From Fimbriimonadaceae bacterium (GTDB lineage: Bacteria; Armatimonadota; Fimbriimonadia; Fimbriimonadales; Fimbriimonadaceae), in the NCBI GenBank assembly GCA_026129685.1, contig JAHCHO010000001.1:1-64000 (forward strand): 64,000 bases of DNA, in the 5' to 3' direction. Of this stretch, positions 35,298 through 40,398 are shown one piece after another. Both the position numbers and the translations under genes were made by a program. Positions within the stretch are counted from its first letter, which is position 1, and every line of letters begins with the position of its first letter. The notes beneath the pieces were generated by a model. That model was given only the letters and a program-made list of their open reading frames with translations. It did no database searches and had not been told where the DNA came from.

Positions 35298-36053
35298 CTA
35301 GACGCGAATCTCTTTTTGAGCCGCTCCGAGTCGGCGCTGGGTCGCCTGACCGGCGAGGTCGTCGCGACCGGCACGGCGGTAGAGGGCGGCGGCGGCGCGC
35401 CAGGCCCGCGCGATATGCGCGGGCTTGGCCATAAAGAACGCCTTGCCCGCTTCGGTGTTCTCGTTCACGATGGTTCGCTCGTGTTGGCGGATGGCCGCGA
35501 CGAGGAGGTCGGCAAGCTCCTTGTCCTTGTTCTGGTTCTGCGCGGCGGGGACGATCTCGTAGAGGACGGCGGGAAGGATCGGGGCGGTTTCTTGATCCGG
35601 AACGCCGAACACGCCCCGCGCGACTTGGATCGCCTCGTCCACCCGGCGGAGATGGGCGAGGGCTTGGGCCAGACGGAGAGAGGAGTTCACGCGCGCGTCG
35701 TCGTTTTTCGCCACCGCGAGAGCCCGTCGAAAGAGAATCTCGGCCTCTTTCCACCGCTGGGCGGTGCGGAACACCTGACCGTATGCGAAAGCCTGCTCGT
35801 CGGGCACCTTGCCCACCTGCACGTGGGAGACGAGGTCGTCCGCGCGCTTCCTCGTGTAAGCCTGGGCTTGCGCCTCGGAGATCTCGCCGGTTTCGACCCG
35901 GGCGGACGCGGCGTCCCAGGCCCATTTCACGGCGCGATCCAGCACTTCCGGGGCTACCACACCGACCTCGCTGGGGTCGTTCGGGTCGGGGGGAGGGGCC
36001 ACCTTGCATCCTCCCACCACCAGGAGGACACCCGCGAGCCACGCGTACCTCAT
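35298..36053 (-). CDS. Lipoprotein with helical (TPR-like) repeats
   Basis: A 251-residue predicted lipoprotein: hydrophobic leader with lipobox VVGGC and lipidated C16. The remainder is Ala/Arg-rich alpha-helical with TPR-like periodicity (FRTAQRWKEAEILFRRALAVAKND near 95-118; SLRLAQALAHLRRVDEAIQVARG follows). No enzymatic motif. It is coupled by ATGA to the preceding pyrC' gene, although a link to pyrimidine synthesis is not obvious. Function unknown; a scaffold or envelope-assembly role would fit. Confidence 0.75.
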   Translation of the reverse strand: MRYAWLAGVLLVVGGCKVAPPPDPNDPSEVGVVAPEVLDRAVKWAWDAASARVETGEISEAQAQAYTRKRADDLVSHVQVGKVPDEQAFAYGQVFRTAQRWKEAEILFRRALAVAKNDDARVNSSLRLAQALAHLRRVDEAIQVARGVFGVPDQETAPILPAVLYEIVPAAQNQNKDKELADLLVAAIRQHERTIVNENTEAGKAFFMAKPAHIARAWRAAAALYRRAGRDDLAGQATQRRLGAAQKEIRV

Positions 36054-37381
36054 GCCGGGACCGGGCCTTCCGAGTAGCGGTCCGGGGGAAACGCGGCGTC
36101 GCGGTAGATCTCGCTGCCGCAAAACGTCAGGACGACCTTCCCCTTGAAGTCGACGCCCTGCCACGGACTGTTCTTTCCACGGCTGAACGTGAACTGGGTG
36201 TCGAATCGCCAGTGGTGGTTGGGGTCGATGACGGTCACCTGTGCCACCGGAGTCTCGCCCCGCTTCAGGCTCCCGCCTTCCAAGCGCAGGACCCGGGCGG
36301 GGGCGGTGCTGAGTTTGCGGACCGTCTCGAGGGGACTGAGAACGTCGCGGTGGGTCAGGTACGTGAGCGTCGCTCCAACGGCGGATTCGAGGCCGACGAC
36401 CCCGAACGGCGCTTCGCCGAAGGGCACCTCGACTTCGTGGCCCGTGTAAGGGGCATGGTGCGCGGCGATGCAGTCGATCGTGCCGTCATGGAGGGCCTGC
36501 AACACGATGTCGAGGTCTACCTGGGTTCGAAGCGGCGGGTTCGTTTTGAAGCGGGTATCGAACTCGCCGACGGACTCCTCGGTCAGCGCAAAGTGGTGGG
36601 GGGCGACGTCGCAGGTCACGGGTGCGCCAAGGTACTTCGCCTGACGAATCATCTCGACGGCGCCCCACGTGCTGACGCCGGTGACGTGGAGCTGGCAACC
36701 GGTGTGGAGCGATAGGAGGCAGTTCCGCATCACCATCACCTCTTCGGCGCTGCGGGGGATGCCGGGAAGGCCGAGCATGGCGCTCACCGACCCGTCGTTC
36801 ATGGCGCCCGCCTCGCTGAGGGTGAGGTCCTCGCATTGGGCGAGGATGGGCAGATCCAGTTGCGTGCAGTAGTCCATCGCGCGGGCCATGATGCGGGCGC
36901 TCTGGGTTGGGGCTCCTACGTCGCTGGCGGCGACGATGCCGGCGCGTTTGAGGGCGGAGAGGTCGCTGATCTGCTCGCCTTTCATGCCAACCGTCAGGGC
37001 ACCGACGGGGGCGACGAAGGCGCCGCCGGCGCTTGGGGAGGCGGCGGCGTCCAGGATGTAATCCACGAGCGACGGGCTGTCGAGGGGCGGGTTCGTCGTC
37101 GGCAAGCAACAGACAAGGGTGTAGCCCCCGGCGACGGCGGCCTGCGTTCCGGTGGCGATCGTCTCTCGATGCTCGAACCCCGGCTGGCGGAGGTTCGTGT
37201 GCATGTCCACGAGGCCTGGCGCCACCCACATGCCCGTGAGGTCGTAGACCTCGTCCGGTTCGGAGACGGCGAGAGCGGCGCCATAGCCGGCGATCTGGTT
37301 GTCCTCAATGAGGAGGTCGCCGACGATGTCGAGGCCCTGGGAGGGGTCCAAAATCCGGCCGTTCTTGAGAAGGGTCTTCAC
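36050..37381 (-). CDS. pyrC': Dihydroorotase-like protein PyrC' (probably catalytically inactive ATCase partner)
   Basis: A 443-residue class I dihydroorotase homologue directly downstream of pyrB. The fold is preserved (small N- and C-terminal beta domain, NPPLRTQVDLD near 281), but the metal site is not. H-x-H of the family is DMHTN here (H61, N63). The His of the HCED motif is Q182 (AQCEDL). The His of HVST is G235 (TGVST). The catalytic Asp of SDHAPH is H308 (AHHAPY). Such pseudo-dihydroorotases are known to form structural complexes with aspartate transcarbamoylase. A functional pyrC is predicted elsewhere in the genome. GTGA overlap with pyrB fixes the start. Confidence 0.85.
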   Translation of the reverse strand: MKTLLKNGRILDPSQGLDIVGDLLIEDNQIAGYGAALAVSEPDEVYDLTGMWVAPGLVDMHTNLRQPGFEHRETIATGTQAAVAGGYTLVCCLPTTNPPLDSPSLVDYILDAAASPSAGGAFVAPVGALTVGMKGEQISDLSALKRAGIVAASDVGAPTQSARIMARAMDYCTQLDLPILAQCEDLTLSEAGAMNDGSVSAMLGLPGIPRSAEEVMVMRNCLLSLHTGCQLHVTGVSTWGAVEMIRQAKYLGAPVTCDVAPHHFALTEESVGEFDTRFKTNPPLRTQVDLDIVLQALHDGTIDCIAAHHAPYTGHEVEVPFGEAPFGVVGLESAVGATLTYLTHRDVLSPLETVRKLSTAPARVLRLEGGSLKRGETPVAQVTVIDPNHHWRFDTQFTFSRGKNSPWQGVDFKGKVVLTFCGSEIYRDAAFPPDRYSEGPVPA

Positions 37382-38328
37382 GCGCGGGCCTCCTCGCGAT
37401 CGAACCGCTCGAGATCGTGCCAGCCGTGGCCGAACACCCAGTAGAAGGCGGCCATCCGAACGAAGATGCCGTTTTCGATTTGGTTGGTGATCAGCGAGCG
37501 GTCGCCGTCGGCCGCCTCGTCGTCGAGTTCGACGCCGCGATTGAGCGGACCCGGATGCATGACCAGGCAGTCCGGTGCGGCCCATTCCAGGTTCTGTTGG
37601 GTCACTTGGTAGAGACGGGCGTACTCGGCCACGGAACTGACGAGACCGTCGAACATCCGTTCCTTTTGCAGACGCAGACACATGACGACGTCGGCATTGT
37701 CGAGTCCGGAGGCCAGGTCGTAGTGGACGCGGCCGGGTAGCAGGGCCATGTGGCTGGGAAGGAGCGTCTTGGGGCCGACGAACCGCACCTCCGCCCCCAT
37801 TTTGGAGAGGAGCCAGGCGTTCGAGCGCGCCACGCGCGAGTGCTGGACGTCCCCCACGATCGCGACGACGAGGCCTTCGAGACGCCCCTTGCGCTCAATG
37901 ATCGTGAGGGCGTCGCCGAGGGCCTGGGCGGGATGCTCGTGCGCGCCGTCGCCCGCGTTCAGCACGGGTCCGCCGAAAAACCGCGCGGCGAGCCTCGGCG
38001 CGCCGGACTGGCGATGGCGCATCACGAGGGCGTTGAGCCGCTCGTAGCGAAGCGTCAGGATCGTGTCCTTCAGACTCTCGCCTTTGCTCATGGAGCTTCC
38101 GCGCGTGGTGAAGTTGACGATGTTCAGCCCGATGTATTTGGCGGCCTGCTCGAACGCGACGCGGGTGCGGGTCGAGTCTTCGAAGAACAGCATTCCAACC
38201 GTCTTCGTCGGCAGAGCGGGGAATGGTCGGCCGTCGAGAACACGCCGCTTGAACTCTCCGCCGAGCCGGAGGAGTTCGCCGATCGAGTCGGCGTCGAGCG
38301 ACCGAATCCCAAGCAGGTGGCGGGTCAT
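37378..38328 (-). CDS. pyrB: Aspartate carbamoyltransferase catalytic subunit PyrB
   Basis: A 316-residue enzyme that condenses carbamoyl phosphate and aspartate, the committed step of pyrimidine synthesis. The carbamoyl-phosphate loop FEDSTRTR (near 49-56), HRQSGAP near 104, GDGAHEHPAQALGD near 124 and HPGPLNRG near 260 are all intact. No regulatory PyrI gene is nearby; the PyrC' partner is. Both ends overlap neighbours (ATGA with pyrR, GTGA with pyrC'). Confidence 0.97.
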   Translation of the reverse strand: MTRHLLGIRSLDADSIGELLRLGGEFKRRVLDGRPFPALPTKTVGMLFFEDSTRTRVAFEQAAKYIGLNIVNFTTRGSSMSKGESLKDTILTLRYERLNALVMRHRQSGAPRLAARFFGGPVLNAGDGAHEHPAQALGDALTIIERKGRLEGLVVAIVGDVQHSRVARSNAWLLSKMGAEVRFVGPKTLLPSHMALLPGRVHYDLASGLDNADVVMCLRLQKERMFDGLVSSVAEYARLYQVTQQNLEWAAPDCLVMHPGPLNRGVELDDEAADGDRSLITNQIENGIFVRMAAFYWVFGHGWHDLERFDREEARA

Positions 38329-38864
38329 CGCGCGGCGAGCCTCTCGTCCTCGCCGAACAACTCGACGGCGTCCTCACCGTCGAGTTCCGACACCTTGACC
38401 GCGACGTGGTCGCCACGGCTGGTCTCGAAGGACCGGCCGCAGTAGTCGGGCTGGATGGGGAGTTCCCGGTGACCCCGATCGATCAGGACGGCCAACTCGA
38501 CGGAACGGGGCCTGCCGAATCTCATGACGGCGTCCAGTCCGGCGCGGACGGTTCGCCCGGTGAAGATCACCTCGTCCACGAGCACCACCCGCTTCTTGTC
38601 GATTTGGAACGGGATTTCGGTTTCGTCGTCCCCCAAGGGGGGATGATCGTCGCGAAACGGGGTGATGTCGAGTTTTCCGCAGGGGACGGTGGTGCCCTCG
38701 ATCTGGGTCATCAGGAAGGCGAGGCGCTTTGCGATGGGCCATCCCCGGCGCATCACCCCGACGACGACAAGGTCCTCGGCGCCCTGATTGGCCTCCAAGA
38801 TCTCGTGGGCCATGCGCCCAAGGGTCCGTCGAATATCGCCCGCGTCCATGAGCACGGTGCCCAT
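38325..38864 (-). CDS. pyrR: Bifunctional pyr operon regulator / uracil phosphoribosyltransferase PyrR
   Basis: A 179-residue PRTase-fold protein with the PRPP-binding signature VVLVDEVIFTGRTVRAGLDA near residues 93-112 and FRDD near 70. In Gram-positive-type bacteria PyrR binds a leader in pyr mRNA and causes attenuation. Here a CATAAT box ends only 6 bases before the ATG, so the message may have no leader. In that case PyrR must act elsewhere, act differently, or mainly serve as uracil phosphoribosyltransferase. It is first in the pyrR-pyrB-pyrC' operon. Confidence 0.94.
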   Translation of the reverse strand: MGTVLMDAGDIRRTLGRMAHEILEANQGAEDLVVVGVMRRGWPIAKRLAFLMTQIEGTTVPCGKLDITPFRDDHPPLGDDETEIPFQIDKKRVVLVDEVIFTGRTVRAGLDAVMRFGRPRSVELAVLIDRGHRELPIQPDYCGRSFETSRGDHVAVKVSELDGEDAVELFGEDERLAAR

Positions 38865-39046: not shown

Positions 39047-39154
39047 ATGTTCAAGGCCGAGCGACGAGATTCGATGAAAAGCTTTCTCAACGCCACCAAC
39101 ATCAAGCGCGACGACGGACTGTCCACCTTGATCGAACGGGGGGATCCGTCATGA
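39047..39154 (+). CDS. Possible 35-codon leader peptide coupled to the sigma-GGDEF gene
   Basis: A short frame, MFKAERRDSMKSFL... to ...ERGDPS, whose TGA stop overlaps the ATG of the sigma-factor gene (ATGA), the same coupling seen between proven neighbours. It is basic at the N-terminus and acidic near the end. No clear Shine-Dalgarno sequence precedes it, and the frame stays open further upstream, so the start is uncertain. It could be a genuine small protein, a translation-coupling leader, or chance. The spacer upstream (38877-39046) shows nothing else I can support. Confidence 0.3.
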   Translation: MFKAERRDSMKSFLNATNIKRDDGLSTLIERGDPS

Positions 39155-40398
39155 CGGCAGAGGCCCGGCACAGCGCTCGCCCCGACCCGGACGACCTCGT
39201 TCTGCGATACCTCAAGCGCCCGCACAACGATCTTCGGGACGCCATCGTCTCCGCCTACACGCCGATGGTCGAGATCTCGGCCCGGCGCTACGCGGGCATC
39301 GAGGCGGTCGAGGACCTGATCCAGGTCGGGTACCTGGGGTTGCTCAACGCGTTGCGCAAGTTCGACCCCAACAGCGGGGTCAAGTTCGCGACGTACGCTT
39401 CGTACCTCGTGTCGGGCGAGATCAAGCACTACCTTCGCGATCGCTCCCAGACGATTCGACAACCGGCGTGGCTCCAGGAACTCCGGCAGCGGGTCAACCG
39501 TGAGCGAACCGAATTGCAGGCGGCGCTCGGACGGACCCCGACGGAGAACGAGATCGCGCAGAAGCTCGGATGCGCGGTCGAAGCGGTCGTCGAACTGCAG
39601 GCCAGCGAAGACACGCTGCGCGTCGGTTCGCTCGACGAGCGCATCCCCGATACGGACGGTCTCGGCGAAAGCGACGCGATCGAGGTCCCGGAAACGACGG
39701 GGGCCTTCCGCACCGAGGATCGCCTCGTTCTGGAGGAAGCGATCGGACGTCTCAAGGAACTGGAGCGACGGGTGGTGGTCCTCTTCCACTTCGAGGCGAT
39801 GAACCAGACGGAGATCGCCAAGTCGCTGGGGATCTCGGGCAACTACGTTTCCTATCTCCTGCGCCAAGCCCTCGCCAAATTGCGCACGATGCTGTCAAGC
39901 GAGGTCCGCGTCTCCGGCCGCACCGGAACCGATGACAACGGCATCCCGGTCTGGGACGATGCGCTCGACGTCTACACGGAGAGCTACTTCCGGGCGCGTC
40001 TGCAAGAGGAGATCCTGCGGGCATCGGACGCCAACGCCGGGCTGGGGCTGGTCTTCGTGGGCTTGGACCGGGCGATCGGACTCACCCGCACCAATGCCAA
40101 CGTCTCGCCAGACTTTGTGCTGTCGGATATTGCGGCGCGCGTGCGCCAGCGCGTCCGACGGACGGACATCGTGGCGCGGTACGGTCATCGAGGGTTTGTC
40201 GTCATCCTCCCGGACGCAGGCTCGCACACGCAACACGTCCGCAACCGCGTCTTCGAGGCGGTTCGCGAAGGATTGAGCGAGATCTTCGGAGCGGACGGAG
40301 CGGGGACGTGCACGATCTCGTCGGCAGAGTTCCCCTCGGACTTCCACTCCTACCGCGACTTTCTTGCCACGGAGCGAAGCTCCGCGGGCGTCGCGTAA
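39151..40398 (+). CDS. Sigma-70 family factor fused to a degenerate GGDEF domain
   Basis: A 415-residue protein in two parts. Residues 1-250 are a group 3 sigma factor of the SigB/SigF/FliA type: region 2 (DLIQVGYLGLLNALRKFDP at 55-73, then VKFATYASYLVSGEIKHYLRD), region 3 (120-160), and region 4 with helix-turn-helix NQTEIAKSLGISGNYVSYLL at 218-237. Residues 268-405 are GGDEF-like: DALDVYTESYFRARLQEEI replaces DxLTGLYNRRYF, LVFVGLDR follows, and ARYGHRGFVVILPDA at 342-356 replaces RYGGDEF. The signature GGDEF is GHRGF, so cyclase activity is unlikely; nucleotide sensing or dimerisation is possible. ATG at 39151 has a GGGGGGA about 8 bases upstream. Confidence 0.88.
   Translation: MTAEARHSARPDPDDLVLRYLKRPHNDLRDAIVSAYTPMVEISARRYAGIEAVEDLIQVGYLGLLNALRKFDPNSGVKFATYASYLVSGEIKHYLRDRSQTIRQPAWLQELRQRVNRERTELQAALGRTPTENEIAQKLGCAVEAVVELQASEDTLRVGSLDERIPDTDGLGESDAIEVPETTGAFRTEDRLVLEEAIGRLKELERRVVVLFHFEAMNQTEIAKSLGISGNYVSYLLRQALAKLRTMLSSEVRVSGRTGTDDNGIPVWDDALDVYTESYFRARLQEEILRASDANAGLGLVFVGLDRAIGLTRTNANVSPDFVLSDIAARVRQRVRRTDIVARYGHRGFVVILPDAGSHTQHVRNRVFEAVREGLSEIFGADGAGTCTISSAEFPSDFHSYRDFLATERSSAGVA

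Follow-up and report, generated by a model that had tools for sequence, protein, structure and literature searches.

Our analysis identified, in the 64,000-nucleotide stretch of DNA presented above (hereafter, the window), a single gene that joins a predicted group 3 sigma-70 factor to a degenerate GGDEF domain in one polypeptide chain, and we consider it probable that its product is a c-di-GMP-gated sigma factor that carries its own GGDEF receptor and serves genes for type IV pili or the cell surface. Anti-sigma factors, partner switches or proteolysis are the usual means by which sigma factors are gated. The fusion is real, conserved and more specific than an earlier note on this DNA had supposed, a note that did not extend to its conservation across the phylum, its type IV pilus context or its Ala-Ala tail. 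No sigma-GGDEF fusion was found described in the open-access literature; the components are already known, and it is their combination in a single chain that is new.

The fusion is encoded in this Fimbriimonadaceae window by one ORF of 415 codons free of internal stops, which begins with an ATG just downstream of a G-rich, Shine-Dalgarno-like stretch (Table 1). The protein matches the Pfam families Sigma70_r2, Sigma70_r3, Sigma70_r4 and GGDEF, in all four cases above the curated cut-off, with the GGDEF match (PF00990) spanning residues 273-384 at 38.4 bits against a cut-off of 23.8. Based on these sequence matches, the N-terminal part is classed as a group 3 sigma-70 factor of the SigB/SigF type, with regions 2, 3 and 4 and no region 1.1: the closest NCBIfam subfamily is SigB/SigF/SigG (SigBFG; 179.9 bits, under the curated cut-off of 234), which ranks ahead of FliA/WhiG, and the top matches in a sequence search of the PDB are RNA polymerase sigma structures. 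The earlier note had read this gene as a complete group 3 sigma factor (regions 2-4) in one frame with a domain of GGDEF pattern, in which GHRGF replaces the catalytic motif; the ORF and Pfam analyses bear out the single frame, the domains and the substitution, and NCBIfam refines the sigma assignment, placing it closest to SigB/SigF/SigG rather than to FliA.

Table 1. Features of the sigma-GGDEF fusion in the window
Feature	Position	Strand	Basis
Sigma-GGDEF fusion gene	39151..40398	+	415 aa; ORF, Pfam domains, orthologues
Sigma-70 region 2, residues 33-99	39247..39447	+	Pfam PF04542, 50.5 bits
Sigma-70 region 3, residues 110-169	39478..39657	+	Pfam PF04539, 37.9 bits
Sigma-70 region 4, residues 197-245	39739..39885	+	Pfam PF04545, 40.7 bits
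Degenerate GGDEF domain, residues 269-412	39955..40386	+	Pfam, AF2, Foldseek, VIA, PleD profile match
R290, equivalent of PleD R313	40018..40020	+	conserved 123/124; PleD alignment
R336-R-T-D339, primary I-site RxxD (PleD R359/D362)	40156..40167	+	R 124/124, D 123/124; PleD alignment
GHRGF, residues 345-349, in the catalytic GG[DE]EF slot (A-site lost)	40183..40197	+	catalytic signature 0/124
R366, equivalent of PleD R390 (I-site)	40246..40248	+	conserved 119/124; PleD alignment
C-terminal Val-Ala, candidate ClpXP-type degron	40390..40395	+	AA/VA in 56/57 own-order fusions; background 14/440; tmRNA tag

Structure prediction places the C-terminal domain in the GGDEF superfamily. Modelled alone with AF2, this domain reached a pLDDT of 93.9 and a pTM of 0.88, and the top-ranked matches of the model in a Foldseek search of the PDB were GGDEF domains, including those of PleD, WspR and c-di-GMP-bound GcbC. 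VIA Z values ran from 16.7 to 13.6 among the 50 matches listed (about 16 for PleD, WspR and others), and an HMM of the domain matched PleD (1w25) with E = 9e-26. The doubt that residues 265-405 might not fold as a GGDEF domain is thus answered by a predicted GGDEF fold (pLDDT 94). The full-length AF2 model has a pLDDT of 85.6, with low confidence only at the N-terminus, over residues 156-183 and at the final three residues; the relative orientation of the sigma and GGDEF parts is not predicted, because the full-length pTM is low (0.46). The final helix of sigma region 4 (residues 230-258) extends, in this model, into the linker before the GGDEF domain.

The four most conserved residues of the C-terminal domain, in an alignment of 124 fusions from across the phylum, are R336, D339, R290 and R366, which an HMM alignment pairs with R359, D362, R313 and R390 of PleD, respectively, and 117 of the 124 proteins keep all four. 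In PleD, one GGDEF molecule contributes three residues to the inhibitory site for c-di-GMP (I-site), and the adjoining molecule contributes R313 (PMC7288161; PMC12943098). The catalytic GG[DE]EF signature is found in none of the 124 fusions, and the columns that hold the substrate and metal residues of PleD have drifted; throughout the window's class, the C-terminal helix with the phosphate-binding Lys/Arg of PleD is gone, the window protein itself ending without the last helix that bears K442/R446 in PleD. We rejected an active diguanylate cyclase on the grounds of GHRGF in the window, the absence of the signature from the whole alignment and the drift of the A-site columns. Among 64 catalytic GGDEF domains of the same phylum, taken as a baseline, RxxD occurs in 55, and RxxD together with R390- and R313-like arginines occurs in 33 by a lenient, position-tolerant test. 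RxxD by itself is weak evidence; retention of the full set while the active site decayed is, at the level of sequence, strong evidence. R283 and E286/E287 are likewise conserved in the fusions and are not I-site residues.

Experiments on SgmT and PopA support a degenerate A-site with an intact I-site as a receptor state (PMC3509222; PMC12564702), and the fusion has the features predictive of such a degenerate GGDEF receptor for c-di-GMP, namely RxxD, the R390 and R313 equivalents and a lost A-site. The earlier note had left the ligand as c-di-GMP, GTP or a related molecule. Strong comparative evidence (the invariance of the I-site, the decay of the A-site and the dependence on cyclases described below) points to c-di-GMP; drift of the substrate-site residues speaks against GTP, as does the loss, in this class, of the helix at the C-terminus on which PleD carries its phosphate-binding Lys/Arg.

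The full-length fusion is present in 57 of 61 close relatives, in 98 of the 113 genomes of the window's class (a single order; named relatives are Fimbriimonadales/Fimbriimonadia) and, by homology searches with our own scoring, in some 189 of the 291 genomes from the little-studied phylum Armatimonadota, almost always as a single copy per genome. Chthonomonas is one genus elsewhere in the phylum that bears it. All 57 aligned orthologues of the window's own order match every sigma family and GGDEF in Pfam, in one frame. A sequencing or assembly artefact joining two genes, which the earlier note had named as grounds for refutation, is excluded by this recurrence across the phylum and by the single frame of the 57 orthologues. 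We also rejected a mobile or plasmid origin, as a plasmid collection held no full-length match to the fusion. Separately, family f17 (L166-L168) has an orthologous sigma factor without the GGDEF domain, which was lost or never gained; cyclases are present in this family.

The distribution of the fusion follows that of diguanylate cyclases, counted as catalytic GGDEF domains at E <= 1e-25 in the genomes of the fusion-bearing clade. With a catalytic GGDEF domain in the genome, the fusion is present in 188 of 232 cases and missing in 44; without one, it is present in 1 of 17 and missing in 16 (Fisher p = 3e-10, a statistic that ignores phylogeny). The sole cyclase-free genome with the fusion comes from a MAG of 64% completeness, with cyclases present in its congener, and the fusion is missing from 11 of 11 cyclase-free genomes that are at least 90% complete. 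Such an asymmetry, with the fusion lost where cyclases stay and almost never the other way round, would be expected of a receptor. The Fimbriimonas-like genus g20 may have lost the fusion before it lost its diguanylate cyclases. Two 1.5-Mb genomes (G030 and G094) have exactly one catalytic GGDEF domain and the fusion, with no other member of the family, which suggests a minimal c-di-GMP circuit. As a further observation on the GGDEF family, another incomplete GGDEF domain lies within a 462-aa ORF (G000:C17:124008-124307, minus strand; 69.9 bits, profile positions 27-130), and partial matches like it were found in genomes G002, G037 and G027.

Outside the window's own genus, the genomic context mostly associates the fusion with type IV pili. 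Directly upstream, on the same strand, 52 of the 57 aligned class orthologues have a T2SSF/PilC gene (pilC); of the five exceptions, two are the members of the window's genus, one is a reduced genome and two are loci at a contig edge. Several other families have the gene order pilB-pilT-pilC-fusion, and families f21-f23 have pilin genes downstream of the fusion. The PilB protein of these loci carries an MshEN domain (Pfam), a domain type named after MshE of V. cholerae, a protein under c-di-GMP control (PMC8325347). In the window, the fusion sits between a SurA-like PPIase gene and a pyrR-pyrB-pyrC cluster on the opposite strand (36050-38864, minus), divergent from it, and the window's congener is likewise without the usual pilC neighbour; the fusion has moved away from pilC in this genus. 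The pyr cluster adjoins the fusion in no other locus searched, neither the pyr genes nor the SurA-like PPIase being conserved beside it elsewhere, and the window has no Rfam match. PilT is present in 41 of 41 genomes tested, with or without the fusion, so that joint loss of type IV pili and the fusion was not seen. Since PilT persists without it, the fusion is not required for pili, and the sigma factor, if it acts on them at all, regulates rather than enables them.

A possible promoter element came from families f21-f23, where the conserved pair ATCTCA-N17/18-GTGGAATA lies between the fusion and the downstream pilin gene (L109, L110, L114, L119 and L121). A count over eight genomes gave 27 occurrences, with 2 for a reversed control, and the bipartite element (L330-L356) precedes pilin genes, flgB, fliO, fliM, a MerR gene and a sigma-70 gene. 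The fusion sigma factor may recognize it in f20-f23, or a flagellar sigma factor may do so. We kept it as a lead and rejected it as a general target promoter of the fusion sigma factor, given that it is nearly confined to families f20-f23, also stands before flagellar genes and another sigma gene and is absent from the window's genome.

The fusions of the window's class share a short C-terminal tail. Among the 57 aligned members, 52 end in Ala-Ala (AA) and 4, including the window protein, in Val-Ala (VA), with variable residues before these two; the one member with neither is the fusion of G030 (L058). In a second clade the ends are AA in 20 of 21 and VA in 1 of 21, and in a third they are mostly neither. 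By crude ORF calling, AA or VA ends occur in 14 of 440 long ORFs of the same loci. The C-terminal Ala-Ala is the most important element of the ssrA degron (PMC7652416), the tmRNA tag of the genome reads ANTNYAYAA, and ClpX is present. The resemblance to the tmRNA tag suggests that the AA/VA tail may be a ClpXP degron, with degradation itself a supported guess. A second SigB-like sigma factor of the class (L370-L389, mostly about 265 aa) has a VA or AA end in 9 of 20 genomes, which is also suggestive of a C-degron. Because this second sigma factor so often has the same ending, the tail does not mark c-di-GMP control specifically, and sigma factors of the class may carry it more widely.

We propose the following mechanism for a c-di-GMP-gated sigma factor. 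The C-terminal GGDEF domain would no longer make c-di-GMP and would keep its complete I-site as a receptor. As c-di-GMP rises, a c-di-GMP dimer would dock at the I-site and either cross-link two molecules, the R290 equivalent of the second protomer completing the site, or lock the GGDEF domain relative to sigma region 4; cross-linking is proposed because a second GGDEF domain normally supplies the arginine that completes the I-site. Since the region 4 helix (230-258) continues into the linker in the AF2 model, the change could pass along it to region 4 and alter engagement of the core enzyme or the -35 element, so that the sigma factor would toggle between competent and incompetent forms. We slightly favour activation by c-di-GMP over inactivation. 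Exposure of the C-terminal Ala-Ala/Val-Ala to ClpXP would probably be altered too, such that both activity and stability would track c-di-GMP, and the likely regulon would be type IV pilus and cell-surface genes. The fullest form of this proposal, in which a sigma factor that reads c-di-GMP at its I-site, perhaps as a dimer, and carries its own ClpXP degron replaces an anti-sigma or partner-switch cascade for pili across the phylum, is more tentative, and we judge it possible and a little more apt to fail than to hold.

The same domain could instead be a protein-protein or dimerization module, with a diguanylate cyclase, PilB or an anti-sigma factor as partner and the I-site residues kept for contact or folding. 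The GGDEF domain of RmdB does bind WhiG in trans without catalysis (PMC13232838), R283 and E286/E287 are conserved without being I-site residues, and dependence on cyclases could mean that the partner is a diguanylate cyclase. However, the top four conserved residues are those that contact c-di-GMP and are spread over three secondary-structure elements, a set that a generic interface would hardly select, and we regard such a module as unlikely. More improbable still is that the I-site or the active-site remnant binds a different nucleotide, such as (p)ppGpp or cGAMP. This idea draws on PDB structures of PleD with c-di-GMP and ppGpp or pppGpp (9g85, 9g86) and on GGDEF enzymes that make cGAMP (PMC12943098), but the active-site remnant is not conserved, and the near absence of the fusion from genomes without a catalytic GGDEF domain points to a product of GGDEF enzymes rather than to ppGpp.

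A GGDEF part that is a functionless, decaying relic of an ancestral fusion, retained since the sigma factor is needed, would account for the loss of the A-site everywhere, for the orthologous sigma factor without a GGDEF domain in f17 and for the very diverged domain of family f6. Such decay is hard to reconcile with the invariance of R336 and D339 across the phylum at 20-30% domain identity, with the high-confidence fold and with the absence of stops in 124 members, and we give it very little credence.

Known systems resemble the proposed c-di-GMP-gated sigma factor in part. In RsiG-(c-di-GMP)2-WhiG of Streptomyces and Rubrobacter, c-di-GMP also controls a group 3 sigma factor, and in Rubrobacter it controls WhiG and type IV pili through RsiG (PMC8325347); there, however, c-di-GMP lies between the sigma factor and a separate coiled-coil anti-sigma factor, whereas the candidate receptor of the fusion is on the sigma chain, and the fusion sigma factor is nearer to SigB/SigF than to FliA/WhiG. 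PopA of Caulobacter and SgmT of Myxococcus share with the fusion a lost A-site and an intact RxxD I-site, and PopA acts with ClpXP proteolysis of a transcription factor; in contrast to the fusion, PopA is a response regulator and SgmT a histidine kinase, and the target of PopA, CtrA, is a separate protein. SigF of Synechocystis is a SigB-type group 3 sigma factor that transcribes pilin genes directly, including pilA, but it is described with regions 2-4 and without mention of a receptor domain, the comparison being with that description only (PMC2758279). PleD and WspR have the GGDEF fold and I-site residues in common with the fusion and differ in being active enzymes with feedback inhibition through the I-site, while the fusion has lost catalysis and has a sigma factor as its output domain.

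If the proposal is true, gating would be shortened to one protein, a sigma factor into which the second-messenger receptor is built. It would also be the first predicted c-di-GMP output pathway known to us for Armatimonadota, linked to type IV pili, and an independent parallel to RsiG-WhiG control of pili in Rubrobacter. The proposal is directly testable, with a soluble protein of 415 residues, four named residues and Chthonomonas among the carriers.
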